From Terrimonas ferruginea DSM 30193 (GTDB lineage: Bacteria > Bacteroidota > Bacteroidia > Chitinophagales > Chitinophagaceae), in assembly GCF_000425585.1 (NCBI RefSeq), contig NZ_AUDS01000010.1, positions 186,001-250,000 on the forward strand: DNA of 64,000 nucleotides, read 5' to 3'. The notes beneath the pieces were generated by a model. It saw only the letters and a list, made by a program, of their open reading frames with translations. It was not told the origin of the DNA and did not search any database. Below are positions 24,874 to 27,386 of this stretch, piece by piece (within the stretch, counting starts at the first letter, position 1; each line of letters begins with the position of its first letter). Position numbers and translations under genes: made by a program.

Positions 24874-25668
24874 ATGTATACGCTTAAGAAATCATTGGGA
24901 CAACACTTCCTGCGGGATGAAAACATCTGCCGTAAAATCGTGGATGCATTACAGGAACATCCGTTTTCCCGTTTGCTGGAAGTCGGACCAGGCGGCGGTG
25001 CATTGACCAAATACCTGATCGAACTGCCGGACGTTGATTTTAAAGCTGTAGAACTCGATGAAGAGAAAGTTACTTACCTGATGCAAACCTATCCGGTATT
25101 GAAAGACCGCATCGTGCACAGAAGTTTTCTCGATATCGCTCCGCCTTTTAACGAAGAATTTACCGTGGTGGGTAATTTTCCCTATAATATTTCCACACAG
25201 ATATTATTTAAAATTCTCCAGTGGCAGGAGTTGGTGCCGGTAACGATCGGCATGTTTCAGAAAGAAGTGGCTCAACGGGTGGCCGCACCGGAAGGAAGTA
25301 AGGTATACGGCGTAATCAGTGTGTTGGTGCAGGCTTTTTATGAGGTGGAGTATTTGTTTGATGTGAGCCAGCAGAGTTTTACGCCACCACCTAAAGTAAT
25401 GAGTGGTGTTATCCGGTTGAAACGTACACCGGGCAAGTACCAATTCACCAGCAAAGGCGATCTCTTTCACCTGGTAAAAACGGCTTTCAATCAACGGCGC
25501 AAAACACTGCGCAATGCGGTTAAAGGCCTCTTTGAACCAGACGTGCTGGCCGACGATTTCTTCAACAAGCGGGCCGAACAATTGTCGGTTGCCGACTTTG
25601 CCGCACTCACTTATAAAATGAAAAAGGGGCAGCCACGCCCTGTCACACCTGAAAACGATCTGACGTGA
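24874..25668 (+). CDS. rsmA: 16S rRNA dimethyladenosine transferase
   Basis: This 264-residue enzyme dimethylates two adjacent adenines near the 3' end of 16S rRNA (KsgA). Motifs: KKSLGQHFLRD at the start, SAM-binding LLEVGPGGGALTKYL, catalytic NFPYNIS, and TPPPKVMSGVIRLKR, then VKTAFNQRRKTLRNAVKG. ATG 24874 fits the family N-terminus and the promoter. The stop overlaps the next gene's GTG start by four bases. Confidence 0.96.
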   Translation: MYTLKKSLGQHFLRDENICRKIVDALQEHPFSRLLEVGPGGGALTKYLIELPDVDFKAVELDEEKVTYLMQTYPVLKDRIVHRSFLDIAPPFNEEFTVVGNFPYNISTQILFKILQWQELVPVTIGMFQKEVAQRVAAPEGSKVYGVISVLVQAFYEVEYLFDVSQQSFTPPPKVMSGVIRLKRTPGKYQFTSKGDLFHLVKTAFNQRRKTLRNAVKGLFEPDVLADDFFNKRAEQLSVADFAALTYKMKKGQPRPVTPENDLT

Positions 25669-26612
25669 AACAGCTTGCAATCATTACAGGAAAAGCACAT
25701 CCGCTTTTAAAAGAAGAATTGGAAAAAGATGGATACGAAGTTGAATATCGCCCCGATATTCAATACGATGAACTGAACACCAGGATAGGTGAAATAACAG
25801 GTCTCGTGATTACCACGCGTATACGTGTAGACCAGGCGCTGCTCGAAAAAGCGCATCAGCTTAAATGGATCGGAAGACTCGGCAGCGGTATGGAACTCGT
25901 AGACGTACCCTTTGCAGAAAGCAAAGGCATACGTTGCATCAGCAGTCCGGAAGGTAATCGCAATGCGGTTGCCGAGCAGGCACTGGGTATGTTGCTGAAC
26001 CTGATGAACAACCTTTCTTTGTCGCAGCAGCAGGTAAAACAAGGGCAATGGCTGCGCGATGAAAACCGTGGATGGGAATTGTCTGGACGAACGGTAGGGC
26101 TGATTGGTTATGGCAATACCGCCAGGGCATTTGCCAGGTTGCTGGCACCATTCAAGGTAACCATTCTGGCTTATGATAAATACAAATTCGGTTTTGCGGA
26201 AGGTCATGTACATGAAGCCTCGGAAGAGCAGATTGCGCGTTATGCAGACGTAATAAGTTTTCATGTGCCCCTTACATCAGAGACCCGTCACATGGCCAAT
26301 GAATCCTTCTTTGCAAGTCTGCAGCAACGCCCGTGGATACTCAATACATCGAGAGGAAAAGTGATTGATACGGACGGACTCGTACAGGCATTGAAGCGCG
26401 AACAGATACGCGGCGTGGCACTGGATGTATTGGAAAATGAAAAGCTCGATACCTACCAGGAAGAAGAGCGCAAACGCCTCGACTGGTTACTTACACAATC
26501 CAATGTATTCATCACACCGCACATAGCAGGTTATTCGCATGAGGCCTATCAACGCATGTCGGAAGTGGTTGTAAAAAAACTGCGGAACCCTGATGCGGCT
26601 TTCGATTTTTGA
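25665..26612 (+). CDS. D-2-hydroxyacid dehydrogenase (NAD-dependent)
   Basis: This is a 315-residue dehydrogenase of the D-isomer family (SerA / hydroxypyruvate reductase type). The Rossmann motif is GRTVGLIGYGNTARAFARLL. Catalytic Arg lies in ILNTSRGKVIDTDGL and the His in FITPHIAGYSHEA, with VALDVLENEKLDTY between them. No ACT domain is present, so it is not a long SerA. The start is GTG 25665, overlapping the rsmA stop (GTGA), which implies translational coupling. The substrate is uncertain. Confidence 0.88.
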   Translation: MKQLAIITGKAHPLLKEELEKDGYEVEYRPDIQYDELNTRIGEITGLVITTRIRVDQALLEKAHQLKWIGRLGSGMELVDVPFAESKGIRCISSPEGNRNAVAEQALGMLLNLMNNLSLSQQQVKQGQWLRDENRGWELSGRTVGLIGYGNTARAFARLLAPFKVTILAYDKYKFGFAEGHVHEASEEQIARYADVISFHVPLTSETRHMANESFFASLQQRPWILNTSRGKVIDTDGLVQALKREQIRGVALDVLENEKLDTYQEEERKRLDWLLTQSNVFITPHIAGYSHEAYQRMSEVVVKKLRNPDAAFDF

Positions 26613-26790
26613 TCGGGCTTTAAGAGTTGATGTAATTTAATGCCCGGCCATATGATAGCATTTCCGGTATTTGTTTTTAGCATTCTGCCCAATTGAAGCT
26701 GGTTCCGCCCTGTATGATCCAGGACTGACCGGGCAACAGCCGTTTTGGTTATATCGAATACTTTAGTACCTTTACCCATATTCAATAGTG

Positions 26791-26831
26791 CAACGCTTCA
26801 GCTACCAGGCTGAGGCGTTGTTATTTTTTTG
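26791..26831 (+). terminator. Terminator-like hairpin in the greA leader
   Basis: CAACGCTTCAGC (26791-26802) and GCTGAGGCGTTG (26809-26820) form a 12-pair stem with one G-U, followed by TTATTTTTTT. It lies only about 20 bases before the greA ATG and about 180 bases past the dehydrogenase gene. It could end the upstream operon, or act as an attenuator of greA. Confidence 0.8.
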
Positions 26832-26852
26832 TTTTTATAAAACGGAGTTTTT

Positions 26853-27348: not shown

Positions 27349-27386
27349 ACAAGAGACCGGGTCACCACCCGGTCTCTTGTTTTTTG
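27349..27386 (+). terminator. Intrinsic terminator after greA
   Basis: ACAAGAGACCGGGT and ACCCGGTCTCTTGT form a perfect 14-pair stem around CACC, followed by TTTTT. Confidence 0.92.

Follow-up and report, generated by a model that had tools for sequence, protein, structure and literature searches.

A Conserved Promoter-Proximal Hairpin in the greA Leader of Bacteroidota, a Probable Transcription Attenuator

Introduction

The closest described system to the leader reported here is the greA leader of Escherichia coli, whose terminator gives rise to GraL, a set of short RNAs of 37 to 59 nt, and is passed by about one third of the transcripts, according to the part of the GraL study drawn on here (PMC6829880). 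The same part of that study reports that GreA represses its own gene via GraL in cis, that this requires catalytic GreA, and that exchange of the hairpin arms with preserved pairing removes the repression in logarithmic growth. It also states that the autoregulation was not observed in a defined in vitro system and that how GreA increases termination at the GraL hairpin has yet to be solved. In addition, Naville and Gautheret predicted in 2010 greA- and rnk-leaders in Proteobacteria, bacilli and Clostridia, with a clear antiterminator in each of their clusters (PMC2965389); the main text of that article does not contain the word “bacteroid”. Attenuation of greA is hence already known, and what appears to be new here, judged from the sequences, is a case from Bacteroidota with the same layout, an unrelated stem and no room for an antiterminator. 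We found no report of a Bacteroidota greA leader in the literature, with the proviso that the supplementary tables of PMC9723704, which hold 64 structured 5′ regions, and those of PMC7366714 might list greA.

Results

A hairpin and T tract lie between a predicted promoter and greA

The window, that is, the whole 64-kb stretch of DNA that was analyzed, carries the single greA copy of its genome (26853..27326, plus strand; an open reading frame with the N- and C-terminal GreA/GreB domains, Pfam PF03449 and PF01272), and the genome is Chitinophagaceae-like, with relatives including Niabella, Lacibacter and Flavisolibacter. A D-2-hydroxyacid dehydrogenase gene (25665-26612) precedes greA and ends 177 nt upstream of the hairpin stem described below, which bears out the 180 bases given for this distance in a first-pass annotation of the same DNA. 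The promoter consensus of Bacteroidota comprises TTTG and TAnnTTTG (PMC7366714), and both elements have candidate counterparts here, namely a −33 element TTTG (26744..26747, plus strand) and, 19 nt downstream of it, a −7 box TACCTTTA (26767..26774, plus strand) that departs from TAnnTTTG at one position. We therefore predict TTTG-N19-TACCTTTA to be a Bacteroidota σA promoter with one mismatch in its −7 box, a type of promoter that lies outside the coverage of a σ70 scan. The weak box that the first-pass annotation had placed near 26768 corresponds to this predicted −7 box; the TTTG exactly 19 nt upstream had been overlooked. Because the corresponding box of Flavobacterium psychrophilum occupies positions −12 to −5 (PMC9723704), transcription is predicted to start near 26779 (plus strand, ±2 nt), with the stem beginning at about +12, and a start at this position would place the hairpin inside the greA leader rather than merely behind the previous gene.

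The hairpin was delineated by hairpin search, folding and alignment. Its 5′ arm (26790..26803, plus strand), which contains a conserved CAACGC, and its 3′ arm (26808..26821, plus strand), which contains a conserved GCGTTG, form 14 pairs around a 4-nt loop, are followed by TATTTTTTTG, and end 31 nt upstream of greA. The U tract TATTTTTTT (26822..26830, plus strand) is where the 3′ ends of a leader RNA of about 50 nt would be expected. Folding of positions 26781-26852 gives −26.1 kcal/mol (z score −5.75), and none of 200 shuffles was equally good. A terminator-like shape by itself is not rare, with seven sites in 5 kb against 6.2 expected, and it is conservation across greA loci, not the shape, that sets the hairpin above chance. 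The combination CAACGC..GCGTTG has a single occurrence across the 64 kb of the window, where 0.06 would be expected. A strong hairpin with a T tract just before greA, as first annotated, is thus upheld by the 14-bp stem, the fold energy and the conservation. A search with Rfam 15 returned no covariance-model match at gathering score in the window, the best sub-threshold match being to a microRNA family at an E value of 0.22.

The element is conserved in Chitinophagaceae and stays with greA

To follow the hairpin through the family, we assembled 110 close greA loci, 30 from one search and 80 from another. The hairpin is present in all 110, which answers the earlier suggestion to check the stem in relatives: 107 were recovered by a strict pattern (CAACGC...GCGTTG plus a T tract, the whole element measuring 23-33 nt) and three (L027, L046 and L101) by eye. 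After removal of three duplicates (L067, L075 and L104), with the near-duplicates L031/L032 and L040/L045 retained, 107 loci remained; for 104 of them, an independent detector of stems reported a hairpin followed by a T tract. A TAnnTT(T)(G)-like box lies 2-22 nt upstream of the stem in 102 of these 107 leaders. Among 289 control genes from the window and the flanks, whose starts are the first ATG of mechanically called ORFs, the hairpin with T tract was found ahead of 51 and the hairpin together with the box ahead of 8, one of which (L102 2485-2965) is greA itself.

The exact TAnnTTTG box is tightly placed. In 104 leaders, 72 exact boxes fall 0-19 nt upstream of the stem and 4 fall at 20-159 nt (31, 41, 2, 0, 0, 1, 0 and 1 per 10-nt bin going away from the stem, then 0), and none of the 104 leaders has one between the stem and the ATG. 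Boxes with one mismatch do occur between stem and ATG in 53 of the 104, 51 of these 53 being the T tract itself (TATTTTTT). Measured from the predicted promoter, the median position of the first stem base is +7, with a range from about the start site to +18 (105 leaders), whereas the spacing between hairpin and ATG varies more, from 24 to 120 nt. In four loci (L069, L076, L077 and L080) the hairpin sits 83-96 nt upstream of greA with the distance to the box still short, the additional bases being located between the T tract and the start codon. Paracnuella and Cnuella (L085 and L092) have long leaders, with 118-120 nt after the hairpin, and inspection by eye shows a second hairpin-like repeat, followed by a T-rich stretch, between the leader hairpin and greA; these repeats are possibly tandem attenuators.

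The hairpin is also retained when the gene upstream changes. This gene belongs to the dehydrogenase family in 66 of the 110 loci and is another gene in the other 44, and 14 of the 110 have an opposite-strand ORF as their closest upstream neighbor. A Pfam search on ten of these opposite-strand ORFs gave matches for four (L004, TonB plug; L021, AAA; L069, PAS/CHASE3; L080, SocA-like) and none for six, which are perhaps spurious. We further built a covariance model, R1, from 73 non-redundant hairpins. In the window's genome it has one strong match, at greA (58.6 bits; next best, 21.5 bits), and no convincing further copies, the other matches there lying at E values of 4-8. Across 59 relatives R1 gave 35 matches at E ≤0.05; 32 of these are directly upstream of greA, and all 32 come from the 36 genomes that belong to the family of the window. 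The three matches away from greA (G011, C35:14124-14165 and C104:28273-28308; G057, C88:20487-20530) are weak and perhaps ordinary terminators.

The lower stem is constrained in sequence

In the alignment of the 73 hairpins, 98.3% of the cells are paired and 39 cells are changed on both sides, neither value being matched in 500 shuffles; the number of pairs with changes on both sides is four, a value that 115 of the 500 shuffles reach. The upper stem covaries and permits G-U pairs, and the lower six pairs (CAACGC/GCGUUG) are near-invariant in the window's family. This invariance comes in part from choosing the alignment rows by CAACGC/GCGTTG, so that 107 of 110 loci is the figure to be preferred. 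As a within-genome control we used the ordinary terminator 3′ of greA, which a terminator search placed at 27349..27380 (plus strand) in the window. In 65 genomes with both terminators, every leader hairpin (65 of 65) contains GCGTTG and 63 contain CAACGC, whereas the commonest 6-mer shared among the greA 3′ terminators is found in 8 of 65, and AACGC..GCGTT in none of 66. Similarly, ACG..CGT occurs in 13 of 16 hairpins of the order-level set, 15 of which come from other families, versus 3 of 66 greA 3′ terminators. Given that the 3′ terminators of the same gene share no 6-mer beyond 8 of 65, the leader stem seems to be constrained in sequence and not in structure alone. The two kinds of terminator differ in their tails, too: the T run of the leader terminators is preceded by a TTA (59) or TA (23) interruption in 82 of 104, while it directly follows the stem in 46 of 69 greA 3′ terminators. 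Other Bacteroidia leaders do not share the interruption, with no spacer in 33 of 74.

Hairpins with other stems precede greA elsewhere in Bacteroidota

From a further 87 loci (L116-L202) we dropped five, three without a BLAST match (L151, L183 and L188) and two in which no start codon was found (L140 and L176). The 82 remaining leaders come from other families in the order and the class, except L119 and L162, which belong to the window's own family. A hairpin with T tract was detected in 74 of the 82 and none in the other 8; hairpin and box together are present in 55 and absent from 27. The box, being rich in A and T, also has some background occurrence in these other Bacteroidia genomes. The stems differ between clades, for example CCCG..CGGG in 13 of 74. 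Among 30 loci sampled across the phylum, several outside the class have a hairpin with a T-rich tail, yet with other stems, and some have none. The leader hairpin dates far back in the phylum, and greA mRNA across Bacteroidota appears, as read from these sequences, to start with a built-in stop signal. Examination by eye also revealed that in many families of the other Bacteroidia (e.g., L130, L137, L167 and L202) the product of the upstream gene ends in a DYSYRATNPFxGTHSIGxR-like motif.

The leader has no room for an antiterminator

Folding of 105 leaders gave median energies of −18.0 kcal/mol for the terminator, −3.9 kcal/mol for the best fold with the arms apart, and −0.3 kcal/mol for the 5′ half alone. 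The lowest alternative fold, at −41 kcal/mol, stems from one leader that probably has further hairpins. An antiterminator was therefore rejected: in the median leader no alternative fold comes near the stability of the terminator, and the 5′ segment is too short. Without room for such a structure, read-through must depend on the polymerase and the factors bound to it.

A subset of Chitinophagaceae keeps a strong Shine-Dalgarno sequence before greA

Ribosomes of Bacteroidia make no use of Shine-Dalgarno sequences, although rpsU is known to be an exception, according to the portion of PMC9976891 considered here, and greA has no occurrence in the main text of that article. We observed GGAGG upstream of greA in 42 of 107 Chitinophagaceae loci, versus 1 of 294 control genes and 0 of 82 other Bacteroidia. 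Very strong sequences of the AAAGGAGG type are found before greA in, for example, L002, L041, L042, L056 and L088. In 24 of 107 loci, versus 1 of 294 controls, the pairing energy is −13 kcal/mol or lower, and these counts are the same with the canonical 16S tail and with the genome's own tail. The usual 3′ tail of 16S rRNA is GGATCACCTCC; that of the window's genome (L233) is GGCTGGAATACCTCCTTTTT and retains the core CCTCC. The window's own greA has a weak Shine-Dalgarno only, GGAG (26844..26847, plus strand), with −6.1 kcal/mol. As at rpsU, a very strong Shine-Dalgarno is kept before one regulated gene in a phylum that ignores such sequences; the part of PMC9976891 used here deals with rpsU and bS21, whereas our observation concerns greA in part of the Chitinophagaceae. 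By analogy, this hints that ribosomes without bS21 may affect how much GreA is made, as they do for rpsU.

Discussion

Taken together, these data make the hairpin a probable attenuator of transcription, located close to the promoter in the 5′ leader of greA. The possible attenuator of the first-pass annotation thereby gains support from the position of the predicted promoter and from conservation. Layout, conservation and stem constraint can be read directly from these leaders; the start site and the extent of termination are predictions, and a feedback by GreA is inferred from E. coli. RNA polymerase would start near 26779 from the Bacteroidota σA promoter, and the first structure made would be the intrinsic terminator; part of the transcripts would end near 26824-26831, releasing an RNA of about 50 nt, and the remainder would read through into greA. 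By analogy with E. coli GraL, the likeliest control would be negative feedback by GreA, and the leader stop signal most likely limits the amount of GreA.

The likeness to GraL, as far as the cited part of PMC6829880 describes it, lies in the order of the elements, with a promoter (predicted in the case of Bacteroidota), an intrinsic terminator within the first 60 nt and then greA, in the T tract TATTTTTTT found in both, and in a predicted leader RNA of about 50 nt compared with 37-59 nt. Differences are the segment ahead of the hairpin (19 nt in E. coli, about 11 nt in the window and a median of 6 nt in its relatives) and the σ recognition, which is not the same; GreA dependence, in turn, is known from E. 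coli only. On comparing the stems, we recognized no sequence common to the E. coli leader (L111) and those of Bacteroidota. With the leaders of Naville and Gautheret, as presented in the portion of PMC2965389 used here, the present ones share premature terminators ahead of greA that recur in distant bacteria, but those have antiterminators, and none fits in the Bacteroidota leaders.

Could the hairpin be nothing but the terminator of the upstream operon, with greA transcribed from elsewhere or from a downstream promoter? Terminator-like sites are common, and a co-oriented dehydrogenase gene lies upstream in 66 of 110 loci, sometimes ending 23-50 nt from the stem, both in favor of this view. 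We nevertheless consider it unlikely: a promoter box sits just ahead of the hairpin at narrow spacing, exact boxes are lacking after it in 104 leaders, which also counts against the downstream greA start raised by the first-pass annotation, the hairpin persists with other and divergent upstream genes, and its stem, unlike that of the greA 3′ terminator, is conserved in sequence. The attenuator may at the same time end the transcript of the co-oriented dehydrogenase in those 66 loci. A further possibility is that the element mainly produces a small RNA that acts in trans, with greA attenuation as a by-product. GraL does act in trans in E. coli, as stated in the cited part of PMC6829880, and an RNA of about 50 nt would be released here as well; however, the loop and the 5′ tail, which would be free for target pairing, vary freely, and the bases that do not vary are held within the stem, which makes a primary role of this kind rather improbable.

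Two other roles would do without termination altogether. The start of the stem at about +7 (median) would suit a stabilizer of the 5′ end of greA mRNA, for which the T run would be incidental. Such a stabilizer needs no T run, yet in 102 of the 104 hairpins detected one begins no more than 4 nt after the stem (a count biased by the detector, which itself requires T-rich sequence, so that the unselected view by eye is the fairer guide), and a TTA or TA spacer recurs in 82 of 104; we give this role little credence. Finally, a near-invariant inverted repeat adjoining a promoter might be expected of a DNA operator, here for a repressor binding near +12 to +43. But the distance between the half-sites varies (23-33 nt for the element), the T tract follows one side alone, and in the upper stem the two sides change in concert, with G-U pairs permitted, leaving an operator hardly credible. 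On spacing, stem conservation, T run and covariation, we rejected the terminator-only, stabilizer and operator explanations.

In E. coli the arm sequence matters beyond structure, according to the part of PMC6829880 cited, and in Bacteroidota the stem sequence is constrained; its conservation relative to the greA 3′ terminator lends indirect support to the arms mattering beyond pairing here too. This is what a GreA-dependent mechanism that reads the arms would predict, supposing that GreA acts on the Bacteroidota leader as it does on GraL. It is tempting to speculate, though the idea is doubtful as a whole, that a Bacteroidota-wide GreA switch reads the leader by sequence, with a recognition that has changed from clade to clade and, in Chitinophagaceae, an added Shine-Dalgarno layer tied to ribosomes lacking bS21. 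In such a switch, the polymerase with GreA, or an RNA-binding factor, would recognize the lower stem and the T tract, termination would be set at the 5′ end of the RNA without an alternative fold, and where the stem has been replaced, recognition would have shifted with the clade.

If greA is indeed controlled by a leader terminator in this phylum, such control would be a rule that recurs in distantly related bacteria rather than an oddity of E. coli. Bacteroidota would then offer many natural variants of a minimal attenuator, consisting of some ten bases, one hairpin and one T tract, with no antiterminator; as these variants reveal which bases are constrained, sequence-read termination would be directly open to experiment.
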